In this document: positions 507 to 7,888 of the stretch, in pieces
Numbering within the stretch: position 1 is the stretch's first letter
Layout of the letters: each line of letters starts with the position of its first letter
IMG/VR virus record: IMGVR_UViG_3300025652_000304
Coordinates: 1-31,795 of that record
Source of the DNA: a virus
Reading direction: 5' to 3' (one strand)
DNA: 31,795 bases
Notes under the pieces: model-generated
Seen by the model: the letters and a program-made list of their open reading frames with translations, nothing else
What the model was told of the DNA's origin: nothing
Databases searched by the model: none
Position numbers and translations under genes: made by a program

Positions 507-947
507 TCAAGTATTTTGGTGTAAATTTTTGACATTTCTATACTCTTCCAGGTTTACCACATTCTCTCTGCTTTGTGTAGAGTAATGTTCTATCACTTCT
601 TGTATCTTAGGTAACTTTGTATGAGCAAAAGGCCAAAGCAAACAACACACATGATACGCGTCTCTAAATGTACAACGCCATTTGTATTGTGGCAGATAAG
701 GTGTACCATCTTTCCGTAAACCTTTGACAGTCTTAGGTCTTAACGTTCCTACACCCAACACTTCATGGACCCAAATCAAAACAGATTTATCAGTCATGGT
801 TATCTCCATAGAAATACGCATAGAGTTACTTGTTCTATATCCTTTGCCTTTGTGTTTTTTCTTTTTCTCAATACCACGTTTGATATTGATACTGCCTTCT
901 CCATCAAAGAGACCGGCAATATATGCTATGTCAACTTCACCTATCAT
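507..947 (-). CDS. LAGLIDADG homing endonuclease, free-standing, 146 aa
   Basis: The N-terminus carries one LAGLIDADG motif, AYIAGLFDGEGSI (about residues 9-21), whose acidic residue is the metal-binding catalytic residue in this family. A Lys/Arg-rich segment follows, then RISMEITMTDKSVL and KWRCTFRDA, consistent with the DNA-binding beta saddle. One motif and about 146 residues fit the I-CreI-like class that works as a homodimer. Its start overlaps the stop of the upstream 70-aa gene (ATGA). It sits between small genes rather than inside an intron that I can recognise. Such enzymes cut a specific site in related genomes lacking the gene and so spread themselves. The target site is not identifiable here. 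Confidence 0.88.
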   Translation of the reverse strand: MIGEVDIAYIAGLFDGEGSINIKRGIEKKKKHKGKGYRTSNSMRISMEITMTDKSVLIWVHEVLGVGTLRPKTVKGLRKDGTPYLPQYKWRCTFRDAYHVCCLLWPFAHTKLPKIQEVIEHYSTQSRENVVNLEEYRNVKNLHQNT

Positions 948-2782: not shown

Positions 2783-2996
2783 GAGTATCTTTAATTTCTT
2801 CTACTGATAAATCTATCGGCAGATAACTTATCTTACCATTTACTTTTTGTTCAATGTCTCCACCACAGTTTAGACATCTATAATAATCTTGTACTATTGA
2901 TATTAGTAATGTGTGGTCCTCACAATGTGGACAAACTCCATCTACCATTTTAGCTTTCTTAATTATCTCTGCAAAGATCGTGCTTTTTTTAGACAA
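2775..2996 (-). CDS. zinc-ribbon protein, 73 aa
   Basis: Cysteine pairs CPHC (about residues 22-25) and CLNC (about 41-44) are separated by a strand-rich segment, HTLLISIVQDYYRC, the layout of a zinc ribbon. The start is TTG at 2994-2996, preceded by GAAAGG about nine bases upstream; it overlaps the endolysin stop by 8 bp. Proteins like this in marine phages may bind nucleic acid or RNA polymerase, but that is inference. The family (a short single zinc ribbon) is clear, the role is not. Confidence 0.75.
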   Translation of the reverse strand: MSKKSTIFAEIIKKAKMVDGVCPHCEDHTLLISIVQDYYRCLNCGGDIEQKVNGKISYLPIDLSVEEIKDTRG

Positions 2997-3465
2997 GATC
3001 GACCGCCTTTCCTATTACTGGTTTGTATTTAGTTTTACCTTCTGATTTAAATGCGTGTAAGAATTGTTTTCTAGGTTGGTCAGTTGTGAAACTGCAGTGT
3101 ATCCATCCTGAATTAGGTTCGCCGGGCGTGTAGAACTCGAGTATCAATTGATCAAATTCTAGGTTCATGTAAATCCAATCAGCTAATTCTGCATTGTCAG
3201 TTCCCATACATTCAAAGTCTGCGGCCTCAGCTTTTGCATGTTGGCTGTTGATCGAGCTACCTATTTTTAGGCACAGCTGCTCGCTACGGAACCCGCTAGT
3301 CACCTTGACTCTACCAAAGTGATCACGTACCGGCTGTAAAATATTTTCACAAAGTGCTTTTAATTTCTCTATCTGACCTGAGTTAGGATTGTTATTGATA
3401 TCCAAACGAACAGCAGTATCTGATTTAATTAACTCTTGAAGAGTGAAGTTACGTGAAAGATTCAT
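2989..3465 (-). CDS. endolysin, peptidase M15 (D-Ala-D-Ala carboxypeptidase/endopeptidase) family
   Basis: This is a zinc peptidase that cuts peptide bridges of the cell wall to free progeny phage. The family core is visible: TSGFRSEQLC (about residues 56-65), the zinc-binding H76xxxxxxD83 in SQHAKAEAADFE, and the third ligand H123 in GWIHCSF. The length of 158 residues is the whole domain. The N-terminal FTLQELIKSDTA segment is typical of M15_3 proteins. There is no signal peptide, so it needs a holin to cross the inner membrane. The gene lies one base after the membrane-anchored protein gene at 3467-3802, a lysis-cassette arrangement. Confidence 0.9.
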   Translation of the reverse strand: MNLSRNFTLQELIKSDTAVRLDINNNPNSGQIEKLKALCENILQPVRDHFGRVKVTSGFRSEQLCLKIGSSINSQHAKAEAADFECMGTDNAELADWIYMNLEFDQLILEFYTPGEPNSGWIHCSFTTDQPRKQFLHAFKSEGKTKYKPVIGKAVDLV

Positions 3466-3466
3466 T

Positions 3467-3802
3467 TTAGTTTGATAGTGGATTTTTTGTGCTAACCTTT
3501 ATCTCTTCTATTTGTACTTTTAATAAATCTATTTCTTTTTTGTTGATTAAAGAAACAGTGTGTGAATGTTCTACTTGTTCATGTGTATGTGATGTGTCAA
3601 CATTTTCTAGTTTGTTAACTTTTTCTTCTAGTACAGCTATTGCACTTTCAATACCTGATGTATCTACTGTTGAGTGTTCTTGTGATTCTAATGCGTCTAA
3701 CTTTGTTACAATCTCACCATACTTAACAAACCCACCACCTATTGCTGCGATGACACCAAGTAATGCTGCGACTCCTGCTAGTTGACCTTTAATTTTATCC
3801 AT
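3467..3802 (-). CDS. membrane-anchored coiled-coil protein, holin or spanin candidate, 111 aa
   Basis: Residues about 6-26 (GVAALLGVIAAIGGGFVKYG) form one Ala/Gly-rich transmembrane segment. The remainder is a charged coiled coil, broken by a His-rich patch around THEQVEHSHT. Position directly before the endolysin gene and the small size fit a holin, but the long soluble coiled coil also fits an inner-membrane spanin or a regulator of lysis. GGAGG lies nine bases before the ATG. The start overlaps the end of the 605-aa gene by 8 bp. Confidence 0.65.
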   Translation of the reverse strand: MDKIKGQLAGVAALLGVIAAIGGGFVKYGEIVTKLDALESQEHSTVDTSGIESAIAVLEEKVNKLENVDTSHTHEQVEHSHTVSLINKKEIDLLKVQIEEIKVSTKNPLSN

Positions 3803-5612
3803 TTTTAAGTACCTCCAACTCCATTAAGATTTGTTGTTTTCTTGTGTTAATCTCTTGAAGCTTACGTGCTTTGATCTCCATCTTATCATTTTGAATATAA
3901 GTTGCAAGACTCTTATCTGCGTAAATTAATCTATTATCTACCATGTTTAATTGATCTAAATATATATCTTTTGGCTTATAAAATGAAGTCGCTTGATACT
4001 GGTCAAGTGATTCTTGTTGGCTGGTCATAGCTTCCATTTTAATTATATTTTTTATTTGTAGATTTTTAGATATATTTTTTATATCCTTGTCTACTTTTTC
4101 CATTACTTTTGCAAGATTTTTGACGATAGCTTTTTTCTGTTGTATAGCTTTTTGTTCTTTAATTTTTTTGGTTTGAACAACGGACTTCTTAGCAGTTTTG
4201 CTAACAAGTTTCTTTTCTTTAACTTCTTTTTTCTTTTCATCTTTTGCTTGTACCATTTTTGTAGGTTTCTCTTCAACAGATTCTTCTTCAGCCATCTCTG
4301 TAGGTTCTTCTTCTATCATTTCTTCGTCAGCCATCTCTGTAGGTTCTTCCAACATTTCTTCTTCAATCATCTCTTCTTCAATCATCTCTTCTTCTTGTGG
4401 AAAAGATTCTGTCACCATGGCTGGTTTTTCTTGTATCATTTCTTCTTGTGGAAAAGACTCTGTCATCATTGGCGGCTCTTCTTCTATCATTTCTTCTTCT
4501 TGAAATGTATCTGTCATCATAACTGGTTTTTCTTGTGAAAATGATTCTTCTTCCTCTGGCATCATAGGTAAAAATGTTGCAACTATTTCATTTGATTCTT
4601 CGTACACCTCCTCCATCATTGCATCATCAGCGAATAAAATCATAGGGCCATTTGTAAGTTCCATACCTTCAGGTTCCATCGCAAACTCTTGGTCCATCTC
4701 CATAAAAAATTCTTCTACAAACTCTTCTGCAAATTGAAATGTTTCCATTGGCATGTCCATAGGCATTTCCATTTCAAACTGTGGTTCTTCATCAAAAGTA
4801 AACTGTTCTTCAAAGAAAAACTCTTGTACATCATCAAACACTTGATTATCTAGATTTCCTAAATCATCTTGTACTTGATCTAATGAGTCTGATGCATCTT
4901 GATTTAAAACTGTATCATCGTAAGTCATAGTAAGAGCGGCACCTAGTAAGTTAGGACCACCTCGTTGCCCTGTGCCCGTGTTGTTATCTGTACCACTCCA
5001 TGACCAGTCTACTTTGTTTGATCCGTGGTTATTATAAATAACTTGATCATTGTACTGTCCACAGTCTGCAGCTTGGCCTCCAGAGTTTGATCCTGGGTAT
5101 CCGTTACAGTTTCCTTGAAACCCTACTATCTCTGTTCTTGTTTGTGTAGTTGTAGATAAAACATCACCTGATGAATCTTTTAATTGTATTGTGACTGTGT
5201 GTGAGTCTGCATTACCTGTTTTACCTTCACAGTTACCAGGTTGACTATCACAGTTTGCAACATCGATATAACTATTTAAAGTTATACCGTTGTCTAACAT
5301 CTCTTGTGTTCTAGTGTTATTTGTTAATGCAATGTCATCCACTGATAATGTAGCTGTGCCAGTAACTTCAAAATCACCACCAACACTATATTTGTATCCA
5401 CAGTTAGCTTGAGATGCGGGGCATGTTACATCAAATCCGTTTATTGTTGCACCATTAGATACAGTGCCAGATGAATTACCTGAATTAATTTGATCAGTAG
5501 CGTTAGAGTTCCAATCTACGCCGTCACCTGCGTTTGGAAGTAAGTTACCAGTTGTGATACTATCAGCTTGTGCTGCAGTAAATAGAAATAAAAAAGGTAT
5601 TAACCATTTCAT
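3795..5612 (-). CDS. exported protein with Glu/Met-rich repeats and Lys-rich segment, 605 aa
   Basis: A signal peptide (MKWLIPFLFLFTAAQA, cleavage near residue 16) is followed by a Gly/Asn/Ser-rich beta-type domain to about residue 235 with paired cysteines (C64 and C71 first). Residues about 250-445 are almost all Glu, Met, Phe and Pro, with degenerate units such as MMTESFPQEEMIQE and EEEMIEEEP. A sharply basic section follows (EKKKEVKEKKLVSK), then a helical coiled-coil end. The layout is globular, acidic brush, basic and coiled coil, in a protein sent to the periplasm. It lies in the lysis/envelope block. Its role is unknown; an envelope-binding or outer-membrane disruption role is a guess. 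The family seems to recur in marine phages. Confidence 0.8.
   Translation of the reverse strand: MKWLIPFLFLFTAAQADSITTGNLLPNAGDGVDWNSNATDQINSGNSSGTVSNGATINGFDVTCPASQANCGYKYSVGGDFEVTGTATLSVDDIALTNNTRTQEMLDNGITLNSYIDVANCDSQPGNCEGKTGNADSHTVTIQLKDSSGDVLSTTTQTRTEIVGFQGNCNGYPGSNSGGQAADCGQYNDQVIYNNHGSNKVDWSWSGTDNNTGTGQRGGPNLLGAALTMTYDDTVLNQDASDSLDQVQDDLGNLDNQVFDDVQEFFFEEQFTFDEEPQFEMEMPMDMPMETFQFAEEFVEEFFMEMDQEFAMEPEGMELTNGPMILFADDAMMEEVYEESNEIVATFLPMMPEEEESFSQEKPVMMTDTFQEEEMIEEEPPMMTESFPQEEMIQEKPAMVTESFPQEEEMIEEEMIEEEMLEEPTEMADEEMIEEEPTEMAEEESVEEKPTKMVQAKDEKKKEVKEKKLVSKTAKKSVVQTKKIKEQKAIQQKKAIVKNLAKVMEKVDKDIKNISKNLQIKNIIKMEAMTSQQESLDQYQATSFYKPKDIYLDQLNMVDNRLIYADKSLATYIQNDKMEIKARKLQEINTRKQQILMELEVLKNG
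4255..4620 (-). repeat. imperfect tandem repeats coding for Glu/Met-rich units
   Basis: Within the 605-aa gene the plus strand repeats short TTCTTCTTCTATCATTTC-like blocks, often followed by a CTGT or CACC turn. They code for EEEMIEEE units separated by P-x-M-x-T/A-x-S-F or PTEMA spacers. Units vary in length, so slippage or recombination between them probably changes the protein's length between strains. Confidence 0.7.
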
Positions 5613-5824
5613 TCTAATATAAGTTTTTTAATTGACTTTGACCCATCGATGTTCGACTCGAGCTCGGCCATCGACTTGATGCACTGATACTGAATGTTGT
5701 TATTTTTATTTGTTCGAGTTGCAATACGTTTACCTTTTAAACAATCTGACATAGATTCTTGTATTCTATGTTCCTTAATTTCTCCGTTGACAATCATAAG
5801 TAAGGCTATAATTAACTCTGGCAT
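5609..5824 (-). CDS. small exported-type protein with two cysteines, 71 aa
   Basis: The N-terminus MPELIIALLMIVNG is hydrophobic, short for a classical signal peptide, followed by EIKEHRIQESMSDCLKGKR and QYQCIKSMAEL (cysteines 28 and 48). The spacing hydrophobic segment, S-x-x-x-C, Y-x-C resembles the 72-aa protein at 1758-1976. It overlaps both neighbours by ATGA-type junctions, so it is translated with them. The pattern is familiar from marine podoviruses; function is unknown. Confidence 0.7.
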   Translation of the reverse strand: MPELIIALLMIVNGEIKEHRIQESMSDCLKGKRIATRTNKNNNIQYQCIKSMAELESNIDGSKSIKKLILE

Positions 5825-6204
5825 CAGTGCGCTGCCTTTCCGTTTGCTCTTACCTTATCTTTTAAATCTTCTATATCACTTAATGCTTTTTCTAATTGAT
5901 CTCTTAAAAATTCTATGTTGACTTTGTTTGTCATATTCATCTCTTGAGTCTCTTCCATCTTCTCTACGGACTTATATAAATCTTCCAATAAAAAATGTTG
6001 CTCCTGGTCCACAGGGACCTGTTCAGATTTTTTAAGTAAATCATTTTCAAACAACTCACGTGAAGTCTCTAACGAAACTAACCTAGCCGTTAGCTCTGTG
6101 TATGCGAACACGCCCATTGCAACTAAAATTATTAGGGATGCTACCGTCTTCATCGGCATCTGTACAGCTGCCTCTTCAGATATGTTCATTGGTTTTTTAT
6201 TCAT
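5824..6204 (-). CDS. single-pass membrane protein with coiled coil, 126 aa
   Basis: After a polar N-terminus (MNKKPMNISEEAAVQMPMKT), residues about 20-35 (VASLIILVAMGVFAYT) form a transmembrane segment. The rest is a long heptad-like helix (LEDLYKSVEKMEETQE, LRDQLEKALSDIEDLKDK) likely in the periplasm. The N-terminus resembles a marine-phage protein I know only as conserved. Size and topology fit an inner-membrane spanin subunit, but no outer-membrane lipoprotein partner is recognisable beside it. It is coupled to the 32-aa gene and the 71-aa gene by overlaps. Confidence 0.72.
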   Translation of the reverse strand: MNKKPMNISEEAAVQMPMKTVASLIILVAMGVFAYTELTARLVSLETSRELFENDLLKKSEQVPVDQEQHFLLEDLYKSVEKMEETQEMNMTNKVNIEFLRDQLEKALSDIEDLKDKVRANGKAAH

Positions 6205-6299
6205 TTTCTTTTCTGTCTTTTGGGTGTAAATAATTTATCTATAACTCCACATATTTTATCCAACGCTCCAAAAAATTTATATACAAATCTATCTATCAT
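6201..6299 (-). CDS. amphipathic microprotein, 32 aa
   Basis: Read by hand: ATG at 6297-6299, TGA at 6201-6203, with ATGA overlaps at both ends. The sequence begins MIDRFVYKFFGALDKICGVI and ends with a Lys/Arg cluster (PKRQKRK). The first 24 residues form a hydrophobic-faced helix and the tail is basic, fitting a peripheral membrane peptide. The perfect fit into the overlap chain and the recurring M-I-D-R-x-x-Y-x-F-F-G pattern make it a likely real gene. Confidence 0.68.
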   Translation of the reverse strand: MIDRFVYKFFGALDKICGVIDKLFTPKRQKRK

Positions 6300-6976
6300 C
6301 TAGGGTCTTTCCACTCTATTTGTTTTTTATTTTTAGCTTCTTCTTTTGCTTTAGCTTTGTCCATAGCTTCTAATTCTTTTGTCATTTGTTTCTGTGCTTC
6401 TAAATCAGCTTTTGCTCTATCTTTCATACGTTTGACATATGTTTCATAATCCGGTCTTTCATGATCGTACTTAGACCATAATGCTTTTGCATCTTTACCA
6501 ATTTTACCATCTATAGGACAAGGTGTGCCTGCTTGTATCATAGACTCAAACACTCTTTCGTCTTGACAAAGTATAGCTACAGCTGCAACTTTCATACCGA
6601 AGTCATTTAATATTCTTGCTAATTTTAATCTTTCACAGTTCTTATCAATAACATGCTTACCACCACTAACACCCAAACCAAATGTTTGCACACCTAATGA
6701 TACACCCACAGCACAAACATCTTGTGTCATACTGTTGTATGATGGTGCACCTGCACTTGGCGGTGCTGACTTAACATTAGAATTACTTGTAGAGTTTGTA
6801 GTTGTATTAGAACTAGACCCTGTTTGGTATGTTGTAGTAGCAGTAGATGTATACCCACCCTCAATAGCAGTATTAGATCCTGATGTGTTAGTCTGAGTTG
6901 AACCTGGATACGCTGGTTTTGCAAATGCTAATAAACAAAATAAAACAATCAGTATGCCTGTAAAATAATAGTTCAT
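6296..6976 (-). CDS. exported protein with conserved Cys domain, 226 aa
   Basis: A signal peptide starts MNYYFTGILIVLFCLLAFA, followed by a Ser/Thr/Asn-rich linker (about residues 25-75). The conserved domain from DVCAVGVSLGVQTFGLGVSG to GTPCPIDGKIGKDAKALW has four cysteines and is likely disulphide-bonded in the periplasm. A charged, Lys/Glu-rich helical tail follows. The frame extends to an ATG at 7015, but the start at 6976 has GGAGG eight bases upstream and begins after the end of the Cys-rich gene (stop at 6981-6983), so I chose it. I recognise the domain from marine phages, where it is unassigned. It may act in the envelope during adsorption or lysis. Confidence 0.78.
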   Translation of the reverse strand: MNYYFTGILIVLFCLLAFAKPAYPGSTQTNTSGSNTAIEGGYTSTATTTYQTGSSSNTTTNSTSNSNVKSAPPSAGAPSYNSMTQDVCAVGVSLGVQTFGLGVSGGKHVIDKNCERLKLARILNDFGMKVAAVAILCQDERVFESMIQAGTPCPIDGKIGKDAKALWSKYDHERPDYETYVKRMKDRAKADLEAQKQMTKELEAMDKAKAKEEAKNKKQIEWKDPR

Positions 6977-6980
6977 CCTA

Positions 6981-7142
6981 TTAACCTCCATTACTTTTTT
7001 CAACCTCGTTTTCATATGTTTTATCTACATTACTGTCTTTGCATTCACATCCTTCACAGGTGCAAATGCCATATTCATCTGCATGTAAGTCTTTGTCCTC
7101 ACCACAATGACATGGGTGAAAACATTTATTACACACTGTCAT
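6981..7142 (-). CDS. Cys-rich zinc-binding-type microprotein, 53 aa
   Basis: Read by hand: ATG at 7140-7142, TAA at 6981-6983. Eight cysteines are grouped as C4xxC7, C11xC13 and C27xC29, C32xC34, with histidines at 9, 12 and 20. This fits one or two zinc sites. It begins MTVCNKCFHPCHCGED, and the acidic tail ends in SNGG. It starts one base after the 33-aa gene ends. Its last codons hold the GGAGG for the next gene, which couples the two. I recognise the layout from marine phages; function is unknown. Confidence 0.7.
   Translation of the reverse strand: MTVCNKCFHPCHCGEDKDLHADEYGICTCEGCECKDSNVDKTYENEVEKSNGG
6985..6989 (-). promoter_or_regulatory. ribosome binding site deciding the start at 6976
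   Basis: GGAGG on the minus strand lies inside the last codons of the 53-aa gene, eight bases before the ATG at 6974-6976. It supports that start over the longer frame from 7015. Confidence 0.75.
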
Positions 7143-7143
7143 A

Positions 7144-7245
7144 TTATTTAATCCAGCTTGTTAACCAACTCCAAATCTTTTTAATTGGTGTTACAACCCA
7201 TCTTCTCCAAAGATTTGCTGCTCTGTTTATTACTCTTTTAATCAT
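7144..7245 (-). CDS. Trp-rich cationic microprotein, 33 aa
   Basis: Read by hand: ATG at 7243-7245, TAA at 7144-7146. The start overlaps the stop of the 216-aa gene by 8 bp and has GGAG about eight bases upstream. The peptide begins MIKRVINRAANLWRRWVV and ends with IWSWLTSWIK. It has five Trp, eight Lys/Arg and no acidic residue. It would form an amphipathic helix with a break at Pro20, the look of a membrane-active peptide. A lysis or inhibition role is inferred only from composition. Confidence 0.62.
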   Translation of the reverse strand: MIKRVINRAANLWRRWVVTPIKKIWSWLTSWIK

Positions 7246-7888
7246 TTTTCTTCTCCTCAATTTCGTAAAAGAACTTGTCGGTGTCTTCTGTCTTCCATTG
7301 TCCAGAATCTTCTACGTTCCATTCTGAAGTTTGCACTTTCCAGTCAGGAATATTATCTTTCACAGTGAAAGAAGGTAAATCCCATATACATCTATTGTTA
7401 GGTTGTGCTGCATAATTACCATCATTTAATGCAATTATGTGTGCGCACTTATGTTCGTGCGGTATCTCAGAATGTTCGACGTCTAGTATATTACTCTCTG
7501 GATGTGCAAAGTCAACGGTAAATAAATATTTACCGTGATGCCATTTTTTATCTTTGCCTATGTACTTACCTGAAGTACCTGCTAATAAATCCCAAATATG
7601 AACAGCAGGATAATAGCTAAAACAATTCCAAAGCTGAAGTTCATCAAGTCTACGTTTTGGAACATCTTCCGGTCTAAATCCTCTCTGAATGAAGGCAGAT
7701 ATCGGGAGACGATAAAAGACAGCGCCATTCTCCATAATCGCATGGAATAGAATAGCACGACCTGAAATAGCGCTAAGACCAAACACAATGCAGTCTTCAA
7801 CTTCTCCATGATGTTTTTTAAGATCATATAAGTACTCCTTTTTTATTTGTGCATACTCTGGTGGTATGTTTGCATTTAAATAAGCCAT
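7238..7888 (-). CDS. conserved phage protein, 216 aa
   Basis: The protein begins MAYLNANIPPEYAQIKKEYL, then DLKKHHGEVEDCIVFGLSAI and GRAILFHAIMENGAVFYRLP. I recognise it as a conserved protein of T7-like cyanophages and pelagiphages near DNA replication genes; no biochemical function is known to me. The body is beta-rich with many Trp and His; the tail is acidic and ends in EEKKND. GAGGA lies six bases before the ATG. It is the first gene leftward of the polymerase. Confidence 0.75.
   Translation of the reverse strand: MAYLNANIPPEYAQIKKEYLYDLKKHHGEVEDCIVFGLSAISGRAILFHAIMENGAVFYRLPISAFIQRGFRPEDVPKRRLDELQLWNCFSYYPAVHIWDLLAGTSGKYIGKDKKWHHGKYLFTVDFAHPESNILDVEHSEIPHEHKCAHIIALNDGNYAAQPNNRCIWDLPSFTVKDNIPDWKVQTSEWNVEDSGQWKTEDTDKFFYEIEEKKND

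Follow-up and report, generated by a model that had tools for sequence, protein, structure and literature searches.

Open reading frame 3795-5612 of the window, the 31,795-nucleotide stretch of viral DNA analyzed here (IMG/VR record IMGVR_UViG_3300025652_000304), encodes an exported protein, T, that is no orphan: judged from sequence and structural models, it appears to work in a conserved trio, c1-T-c2, and to carry a swapped carbohydrate-binding-like head, neither of which the initial annotation of this DNA had noted. Our best reading, which we hold tentatively and with a little less than even confidence, is that T is the periplasmic effector of a late c1-T-c2 module that would breach the outer membrane together with holin and endolysin. 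The trio would stand in, lipoprotein-free, for the lipoprotein-based spanin. The genes concerned and the parts of T are as follows.

2989-3465, minus strand: M15 peptidase endolysin, directly after c2 (Pfam PF08291, E 2e-14; PHROG 894 endolysin, E 3.5e-40).
3467-3802, minus strand: c2, with an N-terminal transmembrane (TM) helix, a periplasmic coiled coil and a C-terminal NPL; its start overlaps the T stop by 8 nt.
3795-5612, minus strand: T, the exported central protein of the trio, 605 aa, with about 230 homologous loci.
3798-4007, minus strand: conserved T tail, residues 536-605, FYKPKDIYLDQ...Y..ND..., with a helix at its end (near-invariant columns; co-varies with both partners).
4008-4214, minus strand: basic helical segment of T, residues 467-535, net charge +13, lineage-restricted (AlphaFold2, charge count).
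4215-4874, minus strand: acidic Glu/Met/Pro/Phe leash of T, residues 247-466, net charge -68, predicted to be disordered (low pLDDT).
4908-5561, minus strand: swappable beta-sandwich head of T, residues 18-235, six Cys, carbohydrate-binding-like (AlphaFold2, VIA, Pfam, distances).
5562-5612, minus strand: Sec (SPI) signal peptide of T, residues 1-17, without a lipobox (sequence; hydrophobic N-terminus in 101/101 relatives).
5609-5824, minus strand: small two-Cys protein of exported appearance, PHROG 24646, optional; some family members have it between c1 and T.
5824-6204, minus strand: TM and coiled-coil protein, PHROG 20984, optional; inserted between c1 and T in some family members.
6296-7015, minus strand: c1, an exported Cys protein, PHROG 20531-like, upstream of T (PHROG match).

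The layout of T proposed in the initial annotation was borne out, as the open reading frame runs from a Sec signal peptide through a six-Cys beta domain, an acidic disordered stretch and a basic stretch to a helical tail. Comparison with seven homologues revealed purifying selection on every part of T, with dN/dS values of 0.05-0.13 for the N-domain, 0.15-0.19 for the acidic stretch, 0.15-0.48 for the basic stretch and, where estimable, 0.08-0.28 for the tail. Because dN/dS reveals this constraint, ORF 3795-5612 is, on the sequence evidence, a real coding sequence and not a chance reading frame. The signal peptide reads MKWLIPFLFLFTAAQA, with DS after the cut, and a hydrophobic N-terminus followed by an AxA-like site is present in all 101 non-redundant relatives, 99 of which have an even number of Cys residues. 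This combination is as expected of an exported, oxidized protein, and the conservation of the export signal agrees with the original description of T as an exported envelope factor. A loose lipobox pattern was matched by 3/101 T and 4/101 c1 proteins, and T showed neither a lipid nor a barrel by which it could be anchored in the outer membrane. Whole-protein scans of Pfam, PHROGs and NCBIfam returned nothing useful and no enzyme family match, consistent with the undescribed class suggested at the outset. Neither of the two results named beforehand as telling against that description was obtained: no known enzyme fold covered the acidic section, and the signal peptide was not absent from the relatives.

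The acidic stretch contains 64 Glu, 28 Met, 19 Phe and 16 Pro; its richness in these residues had been recognized correctly, while its length is nearer 220 than the 190 residues first estimated. Its DNA contains degenerate tandem repeats of 15, 39 and 51 bp, and AlphaFold2 predicts disorder for residues 263-488, with pLDDT under 50 across most of the leash. The Met-rich character of this brush holds for the window protein (12.7% of the acidic stretch) but is local, the family median for the whole protein being 3%; since Met richness is not a family trait, the proposed chelation of metal by Glu and Met was set aside. The switch in charge from -68 to +13 is likewise present but less unusual than had been thought, as two other long ORFs of the window also pass the charge-switch test and a basic stretch of at least +6 is common, though not universal, among the relatives of T (71/101). 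Because about 30% of the relatives are without a strong basic stretch, the suggested binding of LPS or DNA by the basic end is unsupported.

AlphaFold2 models residues 18-235 of T as a confident beta sandwich, as would be expected of a CBM_4_9-like module, with strands at pLDDT about 90 and Cys at positions 64, 71, 121, 128, 169 and 184. The best structural match returned by VIA was the sugar-binding domain of Fbs1 (Z 14.8, 2.8 Å, 164 residues), followed by phage tailspike C-domains, CBM61, CBM4 and CBM16 at Z 10-12; the values for CBM4 and CBM61 were 10.7-11.1, and aligned lengths, Fbs1 included, were 131-164 residues. There are at least three head types in the family, and Mosig has a further one that goes undetected by the head profile. 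Type II heads open with an NLxxNG.FE motif and all match CBM_4_9 in Pfam, as the best match in nine of ten, at 14-22 bits, which is below the gathering cut-off of 25.9. No Pfam CBM match above the curated cut-off was found for type II heads, and none for window T. Two records annotate T as 'putative carbohydrate binding domain containing protein'. On the models, the head is a carbohydrate-binding-type sandwich, and it may bind carbohydrate.

Pairwise distances between heads show little relation to those of the tail, c1 and c2 (rho 0.15, 0.12 and 0.14), whereas tail distances follow those of c1 (rho 0.83) and c2 (rho 0.68), all values being uncorrected for shared ancestry. Two loci, L001 (of the window type) and L078, have an identical c2, a 93% identical c1 and heads of different types. 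As the head is uncorrelated with the partners while the tail co-varies with them, the head appears to be a swapped specificity module and the tail is likely to be the contact with c1 and c2.

Searches of viral contigs and phage records located T in about 230 marine phage loci, including the cultured phages HTVC033P, HTVC202P, HTVC023P, Baldr EXVC032P and Mosig EXVC030M; HTVC115P and more distant marine phage loci also have c1 with a long exported protein encoded after it. The order of the trio is kept in nearly all loci, on podoviral, T7-like and T4-like (Mosig) backbones. The trio is obligate: c1 lies within 900 nt upstream of T in 166 of the 167 loci with room for it, six of them with c1 overlapping the T start, and c2 lies downstream of T in 179/179. 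The TM helix of c2 is found in 95/101 relatives and the NPL end in 100/101, the coil being judged from sequence, and the translational overlap of 8 nt between the c2 start and the T stop recurs in 60/101. No convincing structural match to c1 emerged from a fold search (best Z 3.8), and the similarity of c1 to Pfam 'New_glue' (E 3e-5, below cut-off) was rejected as low-complexity. We also discounted c1 as a host gene in MAG contigs (L314-L332; Flavobacteriaceae, Woesearchaeota, Porticoccaceae and others), which are likely misbinned phage contigs.

Several variations on these genes were encountered. The window c2 has a His-rich stretch, SHTHEQVEHSHT, which appears to be lineage-specific, because only 23/101 relatives have at least five His and the others have fewer or none; a metal site is possible. 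At marine loci L319, L323 and L326, c1 is followed by several exported proteins, which by eye resemble spore-coat-U and pilus-chaperone types, and then by an NPL coil protein. Roseophages CRP-207 (L227:3292-3873) and CRP-810 (L228:6204-6626) encode TM-coil proteins that end in NPL like c2 and are annotated 'lysozyme'; no lysozyme profile supported this label on either protein, and it is probably a misannotation. In CRP-810, gp53 (L228:4818-5573), annotated 'OmpA family', matches PHROG 20531 (c1) and has no Pfam OmpA domain.

The place of the trio can be taken by other genes. The cassette polA - X - PHROG 20984 - PHROG 24646 is retained by HTVC027P and 023Pt_psg01, X being gp13 and gp14, the natural swap partner of the trio, where gp13 is a TM-coil protein and gp14 an exported Cys protein. 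In HTVC023P-type phages the trio and HTVC027P-like gp13/gp14 are alternatives in this cassette and do not occur together: gp13 or gp14 was found in 0/230 trio loci and T or c1 in 0/82 gp14 loci, and crosswise searches of 24 whole records gave a match limited to the signal-peptide region common to both sets. Because the one slot is used mutually exclusively, the gene content suggests that the trio and gp13/gp14 have equivalent roles. The pair (L233:8980-9833 in HTVC027P), in which gp14 has a Cys-hairpin-Cys arrangement, is itself undescribed and has over 290 relatives in viral contigs.

A check of gene order upheld the earlier placement of T beside lysis genes. Of 59 non-redundant loci with 1.5 kb present on both sides, 42 have an endolysin or holin-like gene no more than 1.5 kb from the trio, an endolysin in 25 cases; holin-like genes were called by architecture only, except for GTA_holin_3TM and PHROG 3427 members. 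Random positions in five comparison genomes gave 0-25%, an approximate null, since in two of the five the profiles failed to pick up lysis genes. The trio of L315 directly abuts genes for an endolysin-like lysozyme and a PHROG 3427 holin, and that of Mosig has as its neighbor a GTA_holin_3TM gene that scores above the Pfam cut-off; in the T7-like AP013540 the trio sits between a holin-like gene and the terminase. The M15 endolysin of HTVC202P is about 19 kb from the trio. Elsewhere in the window, a conserved gene at 7238-7888 (minus strand) matches PHROG 3704 'ferredoxin' and a similarly placed HTVC027P gene is called 'PurM', so that the labels conflict, and an ORF at 507-947 (minus strand) with a GLFDGEGSI motif resembles a LAGLIDADG homing endonuclease.

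Compared with two-component spanins, c2 has the N-terminal TM helix and periplasmic coiled coil of an i-spanin, and the trio genes are overlapping or adjacent within a lysis cluster; neither T nor c1 is an outer-membrane lipoprotein with a lipobox, as an o-spanin would be. No lipoprotein ORF was found in the window, HTVC202P or HTVC033P, the positive control L331 being detected, and the lipoprotein candidates of Baldr and AP013540 look spurious. No sequence relation of the trio to known two-component spanins was found in PHROG searches, which are weak tests: window c2 matched the Rz-like PHROG 8821 at E 0.09, and searches with Rz PHROGs 739 and 214 across trio genomes gave coiled-coil cross-matches in control genomes too. 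Spanin substitution is the simplest reading because of the inner-membrane coil, the exported partners, the lysis position and the lack of a lipoprotein ORF. The strongest counter-evidence comes from L331, in which a PHROG-recognized canonical Rz/Rz1 pair lies a few genes from an intact trio; the trio is therefore not simply a spanin substitute in every phage.

We propose that the N-terminal helix of c2 would be anchored in the inner membrane with the coiled coil projecting from it, and that T and c1 would be exported by Sec and then oxidized. The conserved T tail would dock on c1/c2, giving a physical c1-T-c2 complex, and the acidic leash would give the sugar-binding-type head enough reach to contact an outer-envelope glycan (on the LPS/O-antigen side, or peptidoglycan). 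Once endolysin had removed the wall, the bridge would pull on or destabilize the outer membrane. We infer this action on the outer membrane, like the complex and the glycan binding, from sequence and computation.

A host-specific swapped head is not obviously needed by an outer-membrane disrupter, and the main rival is receptor masking or superinfection exclusion, in which the exported head would bind the host receptor glycan late in infection, with c1 and c2 as export or anchoring partners, so that progeny are kept off the dying cell and debris and rivals cannot adsorb. The free exchange of the head (rho 0.12-0.15, against 0.68-0.83 for the rest) is as expected of a ligand-specific module, the sugar-binding-type fold is common to the T head and phage tailspike C-domains, and the trio coexists with Rz/Rz1 in L331. 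However, T has no evident route from periplasm to surface (SPI signal only, no lipobox, no barrel), the trio is enriched beside endolysin and holin genes, and the TM-coil pair that replaces it in its slot lacks a sugar-binding head; we regard masking as unlikely. The lysis-gene neighborhood and the Rz/Rz1 pair of L331 would also suit a lysis regulator or accessory, by which the trio would sense or tether peptidoglycan or the outer membrane and time or localize holin-endolysin-spanin action; most trio genomes examined have no separate spanin to assist, although the spanin profile searches are weak, and this role seems distinctly less likely still.

Two further alternatives strike us as very improbable. 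CBM-like domains are common on phage tail spikes and the AP013540 trio lies near tail-fiber genes, as might be expected if T were a virion or tail-associated adhesin built into particles, its N-terminal hydrophobic stretch unused for export. The N-terminus and AxA-like site conserved in 101/101 relatives and the even Cys count in 99/101 point instead to the oxidizing periplasm, and the genes that accompany T are c1 and c2 rather than tail genes; because a Sec signal peptide conserved in this way speaks against T being a virion component, the adsorption role raised in the initial annotation is left unsupported. The sugar-binding-type head could also serve adhesion or host reprogramming unrelated to lysis, such as cell aggregation or the 'sibling capture' proposed for phage-borne curli genes, and pelagiphages do carry other envelope modules, e.g. 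CsgGF (PMC9599517, PMC9004378). Against this stand the position of the trio near lysis genes and the lack of any curli gene annotated beside it in the isolates examined.

SAR11 are the ocean's commonest bacteria, and few marine organisms are as numerous as they and the phages that infect them. The trio may be how SAR11 phages get out across the outer membrane with no lysis lipoprotein of the usual kind, and head swapping suggests that the importance of some host-specific glycan to the phage extends beyond entry to the exit or envelope stage. That lipoprotein-free breaching, with an inner-membrane coil acting via an exported, host-matched and interchangeable lectin-like head on an acidic leash, is widespread in phages of SAR11 and their neighbors is a wider claim that we consider doubtful; if true, it would be one candidate explanation for the exit of marine phages that have no spanin. 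Kongari et al. 2018 detected no spanin for about 13% of the phages of Gram-negative hosts, left their exit open and discussed possible non-lipoprotein routes (PMC6139136). Among the papers searched, none linked SAR11 phages with spanins. The spanin of Rhodobacterales cobaviruses is a lipoprotein-TM u-spanin, and the trio is therefore not universal in marine alphaproteobacterial phages.

Among known systems, CBM_4_9, CBM16 and CBM61 modules and the Fbs1 sugar-binding domain have a fold like that of T residues 18-233 (Z 10-15); the T head differs from CBM_4_9 in scoring below the Pfam gathering cut-off and in being attached to a phage envelope protein. TonB spans the periplasm with an extended, Pro-containing stretch that is first acidic and then basic, as the leash and basic segment of T may do, but no TonB C-terminal domain was found in T, which has a different helical tail and no ExbBD-type TM at its N-terminus. 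The pelagiphage CsgGF curli genes, a proposed lysis pore (PMC9004378), are likewise a phage-encoded envelope module but a separate gene set; a curli relation of the trio was rejected, as no homology was seen and the proposed lysis and adhesion roles concern other genes. HTVC027P gp13/gp14 share with the trio the slot before the PHROG 20984, PHROG 24646 and M15 genes, the pairing of a TM-coil with an exported Cys protein, and a signal-peptide region common with c1; they are without the sugar-binding-type head and acidic leash and are unrelated past the signal peptide. Two-component spanins (lambda Rz/Rz1, T4 PseT.3/PseT.2) resemble the trio in being adjacent or overlapping late genes near holin and endolysin, and in joining a TM and periplasmic coiled-coil protein to exported partner(s). 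The trio differs from them in that it has no outer-membrane lipoprotein, requires a third, exported Cys protein, and has a large partner with a sugar-binding-type head on a 220-aa acidic leash.
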